Source of the DNA: Burkholderiaceae bacterium
Lineage (GTDB): Bacteria > Pseudomonadota > Gammaproteobacteria > Burkholderiales > Burkholderiaceae
Length of the DNA stretch: 6,350 nt
Assembly (NCBI GenBank): GCA_030151165.1
Contig: JASLEM010000443.1
Span: 1 to 6,350 of the forward strand
Direction of reading: 5' to 3'
A program made the translations under genes and the position numbers. The notes below the pieces were generated by a model, which did no database searches, had not been told where the DNA came from, and was given only the letters and a program-made list of their open reading frames with translations. Shown here in pieces: positions 2,514 through 6,350 of this stretch. Position 1 is the first letter of the stretch, and each line of letters opens with the position of its first letter.

Positions 2514-2540
2514 TTGCGCGGCCGCGCCCGTGGGCACAAT
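2514..2540 (+). promoter_or_regulatory. Candidate sigma-70 promoter for the 2571 envelope gene
   Basis: TTGCGC (2514-2519) and CACAAT (2535-2540) are separated by 15 bp, shorter than the usual 17. The -10 hexamer is the same CACAAT found facing the other way at 2463-2468, so the two divergent genes appear to have matching -10 boxes. A start near 2547 would leave about 24 nt of leader before ATG 2571. Assignment rests on position and the hexamers only. Confidence 0.35.
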
Positions 2541-2570
2541 GACACCCACCCCAACGACCTGACCGACGCC

Positions 2571-3185
2571 ATGCACGCCCTCGCCAAGGCCTTGCTCGTT
2601 CTCGCCACGCTCGCCTGCTCCGCGTGCAGCCGCGCCGAGCCGGTCGAGGCGCGCCGCGACCACATCCTCGCCGCCGACCATGGCTGGGTCGACGTCACGC
2701 TGCACGCGGCGCCGGCCGCGGCCGCGAGCGCCGCCGCGGCGGGCACCGCCTGCGCCGTCGCGGTCTCGATCAACGGCGAAGCGTTCGTCCGCGACTCGAT
2801 CGACCTCGCCGCCGCGGACGCCGCCCGGTCGCCGATCGGCTACCGTTTCGCGGTGCCCGCGGGCCGGCTGGACGCGGCGCTGCACGTGACGTGCGGCCAG
2901 GCGGACGTCGCCGCCGACCTGCCGCTGGATGTCGTGAAGAACCAGGTGTCGACGCTCGAGTTCGACGGCGCGAAGCTCGCGCTCGTGCGCTCGGCCTTCC
3001 TCGATCCGGCGTCGATGGACAGCCTGCGCGGCGACCTGCTGAAGATGCAGGACGCGTCGAACAGCTCGTACGCGGTGATGGCGCGCATGACGCAGCTGCT
3101 CGTCGCGAGCATCGTGCTCAACGTGCTGGTGATCGTCGTCGTGTTCGCGACGCGCTGGCGGCGTCGGCGCGGCGCGGCCGGCTGA
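2571..3185 (+). CDS. Hypothetical envelope protein with signal peptide and C-terminal membrane anchor
   Basis: I do not recognise this 204-residue protein. I chose ATG 2571 over the in-frame TTG at 2514. From 2571 the protein begins with a clean signal (MHALAKALLVLATLACSACS), and the extra 19 upstream residues are polar and overlap the likely promoter. No strong Shine-Dalgarno is seen. Cys16 and Cys19 sit at the end of the hydrophobic run, but neither has a good lipobox. Residues about 37-135 look like a soluble, beta-rich, Ala-rich periplasmic domain with two cysteines (61 and 108) that could form a disulfide. A linker (about 140-170) leads to one transmembrane helix (about 175-194, LLVASIVLNVLVIVVVF), followed by RWRRRR. 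That tail predicts a cytoplasmic C-terminus under the positive-inside rule, so a type I membrane protein. The stop is 2 bp from the end of the convergent rtcR. Gene reality is supported by the coherent signal-domain-anchor layout; function is unknown. Confidence 0.72.
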   Translation: MHALAKALLVLATLACSACSRAEPVEARRDHILAADHGWVDVTLHAAPAAAASAAAAGTACAVAVSINGEAFVRDSIDLAAADAARSPIGYRFAVPAGRLDAALHVTCGQADVAADLPLDVVKNQVSTLEFDGAKLALVRSAFLDPASMDSLRGDLLKMQDASNSSYAVMARMTQLLVASIVLNVLVIVVVFATRWRRRRGAAG

Positions 3186-3187
3186 GA

Positions 3188-4798
3188 TCAGGCGACGACG
3201 GCGTCCCAGTTCAGCCCGTTCTTGGCGAGGTACTTGCGCAGGCGGTCGGCGTCGTTGACGACGCTGCGCTGCAGCCGCGACTTGTCGAACAGCACGCGCC
3301 CGGCTTCCGACAGCGTGCGCGCCGCGCGGCACGCGCGCACCACGGCCTCGAGCTGCAGGCGGTCGAACTGGTCCATCGCATCGAGCGCCTCCTCGCCCAG
3401 CAGCGCGGCGAGGTCGACGGCCTCGCCCGCGGATGCGGACGTGCGCGCGGGGCCGCGATCCCACAGCCATTCGAGGCGCTGGATCTCGGCGTCGACCAGC
3501 GCGCTCGAGATGCGCCCGCCGTCGGCCAGCGTCGCGAGCCGCGTGATGCTGGCCGACAGGTCGCGGAAGTTGCCGCGCCACTGCGCGCCGGAGGACTGCG
3601 CGAAACGCAGGTAGTGCGCCCGCGCCTCGGCGTTGAAGCGCACGGCGCGGCCCGTCTCGGCGGCGGCGCGCAAGAGCAGGTGCTCGATGTTGGGCTCGAA
3701 GTCCTCGGGGCGTTGCGCGAGGCCGGGCAGCGTGTACGACCAGAGGTTGATGCGCGCGTAGAGGTCGTCGCGGAAGCGGCCGGCCGCGACGTCGCTGCGC
3801 AGGTCGCGGTTCGTGCCGGCGATCAGCTGGAAGTCGCTCGCGGCCTCGCGGTCGCTGCCCATCGGGAAGAAGCGCCGGTCCTCGATCGCCTTCAGCAGCA
3901 TCGCCTGCTCGTCGAGCCCGAGCTCGCCGATCTCGTCGAGAAACAGCACGCCTTCGTGCGCGGTGCGCAGCAGCCCCGCGCGATCGGTGACGGCGCCGGT
4001 GAACGCGCCTTTGCGATGGCCGAACAGCGTCGACGCCGCGCCGTCGCCGTGCAGCGTCGCGCAGTTGACCTCGACGAACTCGCCGCTGACCTGGTGGCGC
4101 GACTTCTTCAGCTCGAACATGCGCCGCGCGAGGTGCGACTTGCCGGCACCGGTCGGCCCCGTCAGCAGGATCGGCGCCTTCGAGCGCAGCGCGACGCGTT
4201 CGATCTCCTCGATCAGCGCGTTGAAGCGCTTGTTGCGCGTCGCGATGCCGCTCTTGAGGAATTGCAGCGCGTCGCTCTGCTCGGCGTCGAAGCGGCGCGC
4301 GAGCACGTCGTAGCGCGAAAGGTCGAGATCGATCAGCGCGAAACTGCCCGGGTTGCCGCGCGCCTGCTTCTTCGGCGGCGAGGTCTGCAGCAGCACGCCG
4401 GGCACCTGGCGCGACTCGACCAGCAGGAACATGCAGATCTGCGCGACGTGGGTGCCCGTCGTGATGTGCGCCCAGTACTGTTCGCGCGCCGGGTCGAAGC
4501 GGTAGTCGCGCATCCAGTCGTACAGCGTGCCGTAGACCTCGCCGAAGTCCCACGGATCGTCGATCGCCATCTCGACGAGGTTCACCTCGGTCTCGGGCGA
4601 CACCGTGGCGATGTCGCGCTTCAGCTGCTCGGCGAGCGCGAGATGGCGCGGCGTGTAGAGCAGCTCGAGCCGATCCACCACCGCGTCCTCGTGCTGCGCC
4701 AGCGACACCGTCGGCCGCCACTTCTCCCACCGCCCGGCACCGTTGCCGGAGTCGAGCTGGGTGCCGAGGAAGCCGATGACGACGGTTTTCTTGTGCAT
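3188..4798 (-). CDS. rtcR: RtcR, CARF-domain sigma-54-dependent activator of the RNA-repair operon
   Basis: A 536-residue bacterial enhancer-binding protein, close to the E. coli RtcR length (about 530). Residues 1 to about 180 form the CARF-type sensor, including KWRPT (26-30), the PWDFGEVY segment (82-89) and HITTGTHVAQICMFLL (111-126). The Thr-Gly-Thr-His stretch is the likely ligand-pocket motif. The linker SGIATRNKRFN (183-193) leads to the AAA+ domain. This has Walker A GPTGAGKS (214-221), the sigma-54-contacting GAFTGA loop (264-269), Walker B GVLFLDEIGEL (283-293), GTNRDL (328-333), RFRDDLYARI (341-350, putative arginine-finger region) and WRGNFRDLSAS (408-418). The C-terminal AARTLSEAGRVLF...NDADRLRKYLAKNGL (about 492-529) is the DNA-binding helix-turn-helix region. 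In the family, the CARF domain holds the ATPase off until it binds an RNA-damage product. All motor motifs are intact. It is divergent from the operon it should control. ATG 4798 matches the family N-terminus; its Shine-Dalgarno is weak. Confidence 0.97.
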   Translation of the reverse strand: MHKKTVVIGFLGTQLDSGNGAGRWEKWRPTVSLAQHEDAVVDRLELLYTPRHLALAEQLKRDIATVSPETEVNLVEMAIDDPWDFGEVYGTLYDWMRDYRFDPAREQYWAHITTGTHVAQICMFLLVESRQVPGVLLQTSPPKKQARGNPGSFALIDLDLSRYDVLARRFDAEQSDALQFLKSGIATRNKRFNALIEEIERVALRSKAPILLTGPTGAGKSHLARRMFELKKSRHQVSGEFVEVNCATLHGDGAASTLFGHRKGAFTGAVTDRAGLLRTAHEGVLFLDEIGELGLDEQAMLLKAIEDRRFFPMGSDREAASDFQLIAGTNRDLRSDVAAGRFRDDLYARINLWSYTLPGLAQRPEDFEPNIEHLLLRAAAETGRAVRFNAEARAHYLRFAQSSGAQWRGNFRDLSASITRLATLADGGRISSALVDAEIQRLEWLWDRGPARTSASAGEAVDLAALLGEEALDAMDQFDRLQLEAVVRACRAARTLSEAGRVLFDKSRLQRSVVNDADRLRKYLAKNGLNWDAVVA

Positions 4799-4871: not shown

Positions 4872-4887
4872 ATCGGAGATCTCCGAT
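4872..4887. promoter_or_regulatory. Perfect 16-bp palindrome ATCGGAGATCTCCGAT, candidate RtcR enhancer
   Basis: Fully self-complementary with no spacer, centred about 88 bp upstream of the predicted sigma-54 start. It lies between the other inverted repeat and the IHF-like site. Its length and position fit an upstream activating sequence for a dimeric activator. Its sequence differs from the 4805-4822 repeat, so the two may bind different proteins, or only one may be the true RtcR site. It overlaps the ATG at 4886, which argues that the ATG is not a start codon. Confidence 0.5.
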
Positions 4888-4941: not shown

Positions 4942-4957
4942 TGGCACGGCCGTTGCA
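4942..4957 (+). promoter_or_regulatory. Sigma-54 (RpoN) -24/-12 promoter of the small gene-rtcB operon
   Basis: TGGCACG-GCCG-TTGCA is an exact fit to the sigma-54 consensus TGGCAYR-N4-TTGCW, with the invariant GG (4943-4944) and GC (4955-4956) separated by the required 10 bp. The predicted start is A4968, 12 nt after C4956. The element sits divergently upstream of a sigma-54 activator gene and points at rtcB, exactly the arrangement known for rtcR-rtcBA. The leader to the GTG start would be about 32 nt. Confidence 0.92.
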
Positions 4958-4999: not shown

Positions 5000-5404
5000 G
5001 TGAAATCCGATCGCATCAAGCGCCAGATGGCCGCGAATGCCGCGACGATCAACAGCCTGCGTGCACGCATCGACGAGACCTGCCGATCGCGCAACGCGAG
5101 TGTGGAGCATCACGCGCGCTGGCTGGCGGCCGCCGCCGACTTCCATCGGCGGTATGACGAACTGTCGTTTCCCGGTGGAGGCGAGAACCTGGCCGAACGG
5201 ATCGCCGAAGGCGAGCGCGAGACCGTGGAAAACGTGCTGTGCTTTCTCGAATGCCGGCCGTATTTCTTTCGCTCGGGATACATGTACCAATGGTTCGTCC
5301 GCAAGATCAGGCGCGCGCCGCTCGAGGCCGCGGAACGCCGACGCCTCGAGGCGGTGCTCGAACGCCTCACGGCGTGGCGGGCCATCCGGGCCGGGCGTCG
5401 ATGA
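5000..5404 (+). CDS. Small basic protein, first gene of the RtcR/sigma-54-controlled rtcB operon; function unknown
   Basis: A 134-residue protein from GTG 5000. The longer frame back to ATG 4886 would include the sigma-54 promoter and is not credible. I do not recognise the family. It has no signal peptide and no membrane helix, so it is probably cytoplasmic. It looks mainly alpha-helical: an N-terminal helix (about 2-26, KSDRIKRQMAANAATINSLRAR), a middle section with HHARWLAAAADFHRRYDELSFPGGG (about 37-61), then ENLAERIAEGERETVENVLCFLE (about 62-84). An aromatic, basic stretch follows (CRPYFFRSGYMYQWFVRKIRR, about 85-105) and looks like the signature of the protein. The end is a charged helix with many Arg. 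Three cysteines (28, 81, 85) are present with no metal-site pattern. The stop is 40 bp before rtcB, with no terminator between, so the two should be co-transcribed. Its place suggests a role with RtcB, such as RNA binding or substrate handling, but this is inference from context. Confidence 0.78.
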   Translation: MKSDRIKRQMAANAATINSLRARIDETCRSRNASVEHHARWLAAAADFHRRYDELSFPGGGENLAERIAEGERETVENVLCFLECRPYFFRSGYMYQWFVRKIRRAPLEAAERRRLEAVLERLTAWRAIRAGRR

Positions 5405-5429
5405 ACGCAAGGCAAGAGAACAACAGGAC

Positions 5430-5436
5430 AGGGAAG
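5430..5436 (+). promoter_or_regulatory. Ribosome-binding site of rtcB
   Basis: AGGGAAG lies 8 nt before ATG 5445 within a purine-rich stretch. It supports ATG 5445 over the in-frame GTG at 5490 and ATG at 5502. Confidence 0.7.
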
Positions 5437-5444
5437 AAGACATC

Positions 5445-6350
5445 ATGGAACACGATCAGCACTACCACCACGAGGACATCCCCGGCGGCGTGCCACTGAA
5501 GATGTGGACGCGCGGCGTGCCCGTCGAGGACGAGGCGCGCCAGCAACTGACGAACGCGGCGCGGCTGCCGATCGTCTTCCGGCACATCGCGGCGATGCCC
5601 GACGTGCACCTGGGCATCGGCGCGACCGTCGGCTCCGTCATCCCGACGCTCAGGGCGATCATCCCGGCCGCCGTGGGCGTGGACATCGGCTGCGGCATGA
5701 TGGCCGCGAAGACCACGCTGCGCGCCGAAGACCTGCCCGACAACCTCGGCCCGCTGCGCTCGGCCATCGAGAAGGCCGTGCCGCACGGCTCGGCGCCCAA
5801 GCACCGCGGCCGTGACCCCGGCAGCTGGGAGAACCCGCCCGAGACGGTGGACCAGGTCTGGGCGACGCTGGTGGACGAGTTCGAGGCGCTGTGCGAGCTG
5901 CACCCGCGCCTGAAGAACACGAACAACCGCAAACACTTGGGAACGCTGGGCACCGGCAACCACTTCATCGAGGTCTGCCTCGACGAGATGGGCTTCGTCT
6001 GGTTCATGCTGCACTCGGGCTCGCGCGGCGTGGGTAACGCCATCGGCACGCACTTCATCGAACTGGCCAAGAAGGACGCGGAACGCAATATGCGCAACCT
6101 GCCGGACAGGGACCTGGCCTACTTCGAGGAGGGTGCCCAGTACTTCGGCGACTATGTGCGCGGCGTGTCCTGGGCCCAGAAGTTCGCGATGAAGAACCGC
6201 GAGGTGATGATGGCCAATCTGATCGCCACGGTGCGCTCAGTCATCACCAAGCCCTTCGAGGCCCATGTCGAGGCGGTGAACTGCCACCACAACTATGTGC
6301 AGCAGGAGCGCCACTTCGGCCAGGACGTGTTCGTCACCCGCAAGGGCGCC
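5445..6350 (+). CDS. rtcB: RtcB, GTP/Mn2+-dependent RNA ligase, 3' partial
   Basis: RtcB joins RNA ends with 2',3'-cyclic or 3'-phosphate to 5'-OH ends, through a GMP-histidine intermediate and 3'-guanylylated RNA, with Mn2+. The frame is open from ATG 5445 to the right edge, giving 302 codons of an expected 400 or so. After a His-rich start (MEHDQHYHHED) it follows the E. coli-type RtcB closely: LKMWTRGVPVEDEARQQL (18-35), MPDVHLGIGATVGSVIPT (51-68), PAAVGVDIGCGM (74-85), HLGTLGTGNHFIEVCLDE (164-181), FMLHSGSRGVGNAIGTHFI (187-205), RDLAYF (222-227) and NCHHNYVQQERHFG (279-292). Metal/GTP-site residues present are Asp80, Cys83, Asn172, His173, His190 and His281. The active-site His that accepts GMP (His337 in E. 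coli) lies beyond the window. It is second in an operon under the 4942-4957 promoter. Confidence 0.97.
   Translation, partial: MEHDQHYHHEDIPGGVPLKMWTRGVPVEDEARQQLTNAARLPIVFRHIAAMPDVHLGIGATVGSVIPTLRAIIPAAVGVDIGCGMMAAKTTLRAEDLPDNLGPLRSAIEKAVPHGSAPKHRGRDPGSWENPPETVDQVWATLVDEFEALCELHPRLKNTNNRKHLGTLGTGNHFIEVCLDEMGFVWFMLHSGSRGVGNAIGTHFIELAKKDAERNMRNLPDRDLAYFEEGAQYFGDYVRGVSWAQKFAMKNREVMMANLIATVRSVITKPFEAHVEAVNCHHNYVQQERHFGQDVFVTRKGA

Follow-up and report, generated by a model that had tools for sequence, protein, structure and literature searches.

A gene for a small protein of an undescribed family stands first in an RtcR-type RNA-repair operon and recurs among rtc genes elsewhere

The operon in the 6,350-bp stretch of DNA analysed here (the window) is of a known kind, an RtcR-controlled RNA-repair operon, and it includes a member of an undescribed protein family. 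This small first gene is real and recurrent and, on present evidence, is not a dedicated partner of the RNA ligase RtcB. We lean towards viewing it as a self-contained mobile accessory gene that RtcR operons would have captured repeatedly, and whose product would have an independent protective job rather than a fixed partnership with RtcB. An independent protective gene is likelier than a fixed ligase partner because most of the relatives examined lie elsewhere. The features of the window are as follows.

3188..4798, minus strand: rtcR, sigma-54 activator of RNA repair (NCBIfam RNA_repair_RtcR NF038308, 819.4 bits against a cut-off of 650; Pfam RtcR, 2.4e-83)
4942..4957, plus strand: sigma-54 (-24/-12) promoter-like site TGGCACGGCCGTTGCA (match to the consensus pattern, 0 mismatches)
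5000..5404, plus strand: small accessory gene, 134 aa, FRSGY family, short branch (ORF from GTG to TGA, family matches, alignment, AlphaFold2 model, GC3)
5168..5179, plus strand: conserved FPGG loop, residues 57-60 (invariant in 38/38 aligned rows)
5249..5284, plus strand: signature ECRPYFFRSGYM, residues 84-95 (no variation in E84, RPYFFRSG or M95 across the 38 short-branch rows)
Residues 84-106 of the window protein, plus strand: aromatic/basic stretch ECRPYFFRSGYMYQWFVRKIRRA (read from the translation)
5445..6350, plus strand: rtcB, 3'-5' RNA ligase (ATG at 5445; Pfam RtcB PF01139, 1.2e-78; cut by the window end)

The window has the features of an RtcR-controlled RNA-repair operon, namely an rtcR gene that scores over the curated cut-off and is divergent from the small gene, a sigma-54 site, and rtcB. 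The site, an exact consensus match, ends 42 bp before the GTG of the small gene, and 40 bp separate the end of this gene from the ATG of the co-directional rtcB; the position that the earlier note had given it, first behind the sigma-54 site and just ahead of rtcB, is thus borne out. A scan for sigma-54 sites gave 2 matches with up to 2 mismatches against 2.25 expected, which is no more than chance, and the argument therefore rests on the perfect match and its location. Of 16 other RtcR-divergent entries, nine have a sigma-54 core with 0-2 mismatches, located 32-54 or 112-153 bp ahead of where the first-gene match begins; no core was found in five, and in the entries L115 and L147, both from one genome, a doubtful site lies at a distance of 593 bp. 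Judging by sequence, the window promoter has a spacing like that of these relatives, so the small gene takes the spot where Ro or rtcB usually begins. In L147 (genome G426), the approximately 760 bp between rtcB and rtcR (5417-6179) contain open pieces of at most 191 residues, with no gene recognised. Elsewhere in the window, a 223-aa ORF (2514-3185, plus strand) has no Pfam match above cut-off.

RtcR-controlled rsr-yrlBA-rtcBA and rtcBA operons are described in PMC7790460, and RtcR activation by RNA ends with a 2',3'-cyclic phosphate in that paper and in PMC9650030. The window shares with these operons the divergent rtcR, the sigma-54 site and the downstream rtcB; however, it differs from them in having a small undescribed gene first and no Ro gene before rtcB. 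The earlier note had called rtcBA the canonical operon, which is correct in part. Across 39 loci centred on RtcR, the first recognised gene on the divergent side was rtcB in nine, but Ro (rsr) in 24 (rtcA in two, Band7 in one, none in three), so plain rtcBA is not the sole common layout. The small gene was found in none of these 39 loci, over stretches of 2.9-4.6 kb. In one genome (G028, L066), the rtcR matches are two pieces in different frames, and this rtcR may be broken.

The open reading frame of 134 residues reported previously is present, with a GTG start and a TGA stop. An alternative in-frame ATG at 4886 would yield 172 aa, but it is unlikely to be the start because most aligned homologues begin at or beside the column of the GTG at 5000. 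The protein contains 24 R and 3 K and has a pI of 10.3. Its previous description as Arg-rich and helical, with an aromatic/basic stretch, is confirmed by the arginine count, an all-helical prediction and the stretch listed above.

At E <= 0.001, 321 proteins among 461 candidates match the window protein; one of them is the window's own protein, which heads the best 120 of the 321. Thirty-eight aligned rows have 22 invariant columns, mostly in W..A...F...L.FPGG and E.RPYFFRSG.M. The small gene encodes a real conserved protein, with conservation far beyond chance. "FRSGY family" is a label coined in this analysis, and it covers a short and a long branch. The window protein carries both marks that define the short branch, the FPGG loop and E-x-R-P-Y-F-F-R-S-G-Y-M. 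The more distant relatives constitute the long branch, whose proteins are about 150-220 aa in length and carry FLExDPxFFRSGYxKE as well as an extra helical tail, and RSGY is invariant across mixed alignments of the two. With a long-branch profile, 193 of 7995 scored candidates matched at E <= 0.001, and the best 120 of these 193 had no Pfam domain; ten long-branch proteins likewise reached no Pfam or NCBIfam cut-off. An hhalign comparison matched 123 columns of the short and long profiles (probability 100, E 1.2e-40), the long-branch set having been recruited with the short profile before this comparison. By these comparisons, FRSGY is an undescribed, well-conserved family in two branches.

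The earlier note had found the protein unrecognised and its role unreadable from motifs, and searches of Pfam, NCBIfam and PADLOC agree with this. Neither the window protein nor any of the 38 family members reached the cut-off of a Pfam family, and NCBIfam gave no match for the window protein. PADLOC returned nothing for the window protein and a best E of 0.014 among the 38 members, so by this search it is not a known anti-phage defence protein; PHROG gave no convincing match (best E 0.0027, one member). The AlphaFold2 model of the short form is all-helical (mean pLDDT 89.8), and that of the long form has nine helices (mean pLDDT 94.9). Foldseek found no PDB match at E <= 0.001 for either form. 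Among the weak matches of the long form are 14-3-3 proteins, designed helical repeats and a HEAT-type enzyme; they may hint at a helical-repeat arrangement but do not demonstrate it.

Over a short region, the family resembles Bpa/PafE (PF10759), a bacterial proteasome activator, as seen in 7/38 members at E <= 0.1 (best E 0.0013) and in a match to PDB chain 5iet_B at E 0.036. It is centred on R.G.M.K.LL..v..APL and covers mainly about 30 residues. However, it is not significant, as the window protein scores 12.9 bits against a cut-off of 29.5 and thus falls outside PF10759, and there is no significant Foldseek match to the PDB. That the protein is a proteostasis adaptor related to Bpa/PafE is highly improbable, and we treat the likeness as a lead only.

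Homologues were collected from several sources. At least 55 loci came from a collection of 84,980 species genomes, this number being a lower bound since the search was pattern-filtered, and one came from viral contigs. In group searches, whose groups are named after the records of their centre loci and whose carrier counts include the centre genomes and some carriers found earlier, there were 25 carriers at E <= 1e-4 among 398 Lysobacterales, two among 399 Burkholderiales, four among 369 genomes of the class of G038, one among 149 genomes of the phylum of G004, and three among 149 of the phylum of G009; no longer stretches were fetched for the weak order matches G063, G220 and G436. Of the 72 homologue loci, four have rtcB, rtcA, rtcR or Ro in the fetched stretch, which extends at least 5 kb on both sides in just 40 of the 72. 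Several carriers are draft MAGs, so missing linkage and missing RtcB are partly a matter of incompleteness.

Three of the four rtc-linked loci contain rtcR and the fourth contains rtcB. In Tahibacter soli (L027), rtcR is followed divergently by Ro, a Y RNA-like stretch (YrlA, 68.4 bits against a cut-off of 69), rtcB, rtcA and the small gene. The Lysobacterales genome G399 (L143) has rtcR, then Ro, rtcB, rtcA and the small gene, with RlaP on the other side of rtcR; its Ro matches vWA_Ro60 at 1e-17 with TROVE just under cut-off, and the Ro calls in other loci rest on similarity to it. In a Gynuella MAG (L038, the same place as L161), a sigma-54-like site with one mismatch is followed by two tRNA genes, an SPFH/Band7 gene, the small gene, a second rtcB and an unnamed 312-aa gene, while rtcR, rtcB and RlaP lie on the opposite side (Pfam is the source of the domain names in L143 and L161). 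The Psychrobacter MAG (L046) has an rtcB end, an unnamed 158-aa gene, the small gene and a 152-aa gene, with its rtcR on another contig. Thus, the small gene comes directly after rtcA in two loci, second, between SPFH/Band7 and the second rtcB, in Gynuella, and downstream of rtcB in Psychrobacter; only in the window is it first, and in the other four rtc loci (L038 and L161 counted as one) it is second or later.

This linkage is not due to chance, since four loci (three with rtcR) lie among rtc genes when about 0.05 would be expected; the expectation is the product of 72 loci, an RtcR carriage of about 20% (9/50 carrier genomes with RtcR over cut-off) and the fraction 16 kb / 4.5 Mb. The tie to RNA-repair operons proposed in the earlier note therefore holds as a recurrent place among rtc genes (L027, L038, L143 and L046), but not as a fixed partnership with RtcB. 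In the order, RtcR co-occurrence is only weakly raised among carriers (6/25 versus 35/373 of the others, one-sided p 0.033), with the two linked genomes contributing to this figure.

The rtc-linked members are scattered in a 79-row tree, in which L027 and L143 each fall in a supported group otherwise made up of unlinked genes, and L046 is a long branch. A 50-row tree, obtained by dropping long-branch rows and near-copies from the 79, rejects a single clade of the five rtc-linked members, window included (p-AU 7.6e-5), but does not reject L027 and L143 as one clade (p-AU 0.204). Because of this difference, the number of separate captures by rtc loci is put at two or more, with four or five possible. 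Broken or partial copies (L040, L042, L044, L049, L054 and L157) were kept out of the trees.

These data bear on the proposal of the earlier note that the protein is a dedicated partner of RtcB: an RNA-binding adaptor, a ligase activator replacing archease, or an end-processing cofactor. The gene is co-directional with rtcB and close ahead of it, homologues occur in four further rtc loci, and the protein is basic with an aromatic/Arg motif, all of which would suit a partner. However, the fetched stretches of 68 of the 72 loci are free of rtc genes, and 39 of 41 RtcR genomes of the order have no homologue close to rtcR (only G027 and G399 carry the small gene within about 5 kb of it). Furthermore, the rtc-linked members do not form one clade, and RtcB at E <= 1e-20 was found in 32/50 and 13/16 carrier genomes, leaving 21 of 66 carriers (18/50 and 3/16) lacking it; the L051-L055 genomes were left out of the 50-genome RtcR and RtcB counts. 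The carriers lacking RtcB include incomplete MAGs, and in a few of the 66 genomes the sole family copy is broken. Other RtcB-less carriers, however, have locus titles that name strains (Dyella lipolytica, Dyella lutea, Stenotrophomonas sp. ATCM1_4 and Pseudomonas chengduensis), a pattern unexpected for an obligate partner of RtcB. As to whether homologues always sit beside rtcB or rtcR, they do not; they lie mostly outside rtc loci, the outcome that had been named in advance as counting against the proposal. With first position confined to the window and a codon composition pointing to recent acquisition (see below), we consider a dedicated partner very unlikely.

Archease is a small RtcB activator whose gene can share an operon with rtcB, according to PMC3973293. 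The window protein resembles it in being small, with a gene possibly in the rtcB operon; in contrast, it has no archease family among its Pfam and NCBIfam matches up to E 1, is predicted to be all-helical, and belongs to a family that occurs in RtcB-less genomes.

The codon composition of the small gene differs from that of its neighbours. Its GC3 is 0.79, whereas MFS, DUF3047, rtcR and rtcB have values of 0.94-0.98; among 1038 stretches of 134 codons from these four genes, the lowest GC3 is 0.91, and the small gene lies below all of them. As the gene is an outlier in the window, it was probably acquired recently by this lineage, from another genome. Such a gene might be a passenger, recently inserted, transcribed by chance and without any role in RNA damage. 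The GC3 value, the lack of constant neighbours of the family elsewhere and the absence of enrichment of sigma-54-like sites upstream of family members (4/71, window and L027 included, against 274/2880 in the control) are consistent with this, but the frame and motif are intact in the window and the recurrent rtc linkage is well above expectation, making a mere passenger quite unlikely.

Four homologues are flanked directly, upstream as well as at the stop codon, by attC-like sites whose ends are fully complementary: L001 (Piscinibacter), L017 (a Pseudoxanthomonas MAG), L166 (G703) and L167 (G838, long branch). L001 and L017 passed strict attC box rules (control 40/2240), with L166 and L167 outside that strict screen. 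In a loose screen, the density of attC-like sites was 17 in 7.9 kb for L001 and 26 in 14 kb for L166, against at most about 1.2 per kb for the other loci printed. Among genome loci, L001 and L166 have the highest identity to the window protein (53%), although by tree path some metagenome proteins are nearer to it. From their flanks, these four homologues look like integron cassettes. Over all loci the loose screen was not enriched (7/72 downstream and 14/72 upstream, versus 205/2160 downstream-type control windows), so cassette life is argued for these four only. The family is like integron cassettes, or orphan genes of accessory islands, in the attC-like flanks of the four relatives, the atypical GC3 and the scattered distribution; unlike a cassette, the window copy has no attC directly after its stop codon in the strict screen and sits behind a sigma-54 site.

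Some neighbourhoods are of an immunity type. On a Sinorhizobium plasmid (L173, NZ_CP016451.1:68416-80835), a long-branch FRSGY gene lies among YcxB, DUF6389, SMI1/KNR4 and DUF1963 genes, a layout that we take to be typical of immunity arrays. Other members have one YcxB and one WapI-like immunity protein as neighbours. Together with the plasmid array, these make an immunity role worth testing, possibly that of an orphan immunity-like protein acting against an RNA-cleaving or translation-blocking toxin and placed under RtcR because such toxins would create the ends that RtcR senses. The attC-like flanks of some relatives would fit this, and RtcR-linked defence cargo has a precedent: PMC11090510 describes RtcR homologues in linkage with type II CoCoNuT systems, ancillary defence genes lying between the two. 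However, one array and two single neighbours stand against a majority of scanned neighbours with no match or with unrelated families (25 of 44 families listed in one neighbour scan; the neighbour list behind the YcxB and WapI-like finds omitted eight near-copy loci and the rtc-linked loci, and 59 of its 223 nearby ORFs were hand-chosen). No cognate toxin was seen among the window genes scanned with Pfam, and PADLOC gave no hit for the window protein, as above. We regard this explanation as unlikely.

Under the preferred reading, that of a captured gene with a protective job of its own, the following picture would apply: FRSGY proteins would be small and helical, encoded mostly by single accessory genes acting alone and in some cases cassette-like; the window lineage would have gained its copy horizontally, between the RtcR-dependent sigma-54 promoter and rtcB; and similar captures, at other positions, would have occurred in several other rtc loci. 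Given rtcR, the sigma-54 site upstream and the published work on RtcR, we infer that RNA ends with a 2',3'-cyclic phosphate would induce the small gene together with RNA repair. The product would likely protect independently when RNA or translation is damaged, with RNA itself, a target associated with the ribosome or a toxin that cleaves RNA as its ligand, instead of carrying out a fixed step in RtcB catalysis. The high pI, the Arg/aromatic motif and the stand-alone life fit such a protector.

These results suggest that mobile accessory genes find a landing place in RtcR operons. Genes that repeatedly land behind an RtcR promoter would be candidate countermeasures to RNA-cleaving toxins or phage-triggered nucleases, offering a way to find RNA-damage genes, and a protective role, if true, would add a new kind of player beside the ligase, cyclase, Ro and SPFH proteins. 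A bolder version, which we offer tentatively, is that the FRSGY family is a new and mobile class of proteins for RNA-damage protection or immunity, which integrons and islands would spread and which RtcR operons would have captured several times because it counters the RNA-cleaving attacks that RtcR senses.

An accessory gene inside an rtc locus is also described for P. aeruginosa, where PMC13086221 reports an SPFH gene (PaFlo8/PA14_60630); the Gynuella locus has both an SPFH gene and the small gene, but the small protein of the window matches no SPFH family in Pfam. Several other genes of the rtc-linked loci are worth recording. RlaP (PF10127), a member of the RNA repair pathway DNA polymerase beta family, is found near rtcR at L143:11755-12549 and L161:10695-11471. 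The 158-aa protein between rtcB and the small gene of the Psychrobacter MAG (L046:932-1408) has no Pfam match, and the start of its gene is overlapped by a weak tmRNA-like match (14.5 bits, cut-off 47). The 312-aa protein after the second rtcB of Gynuella (L161:2905-3840, minus strand) likewise has no Pfam match. Finally, the two tRNA genes of this locus (L161:7260-7420, minus strand), one for Ile (aat) and the other carrying the stop-reading anticodon UUA, head the operon divergent from rtcR behind the sigma-54-like site, and are possibly decoy or suppressor tRNAs under RNA-damage control.
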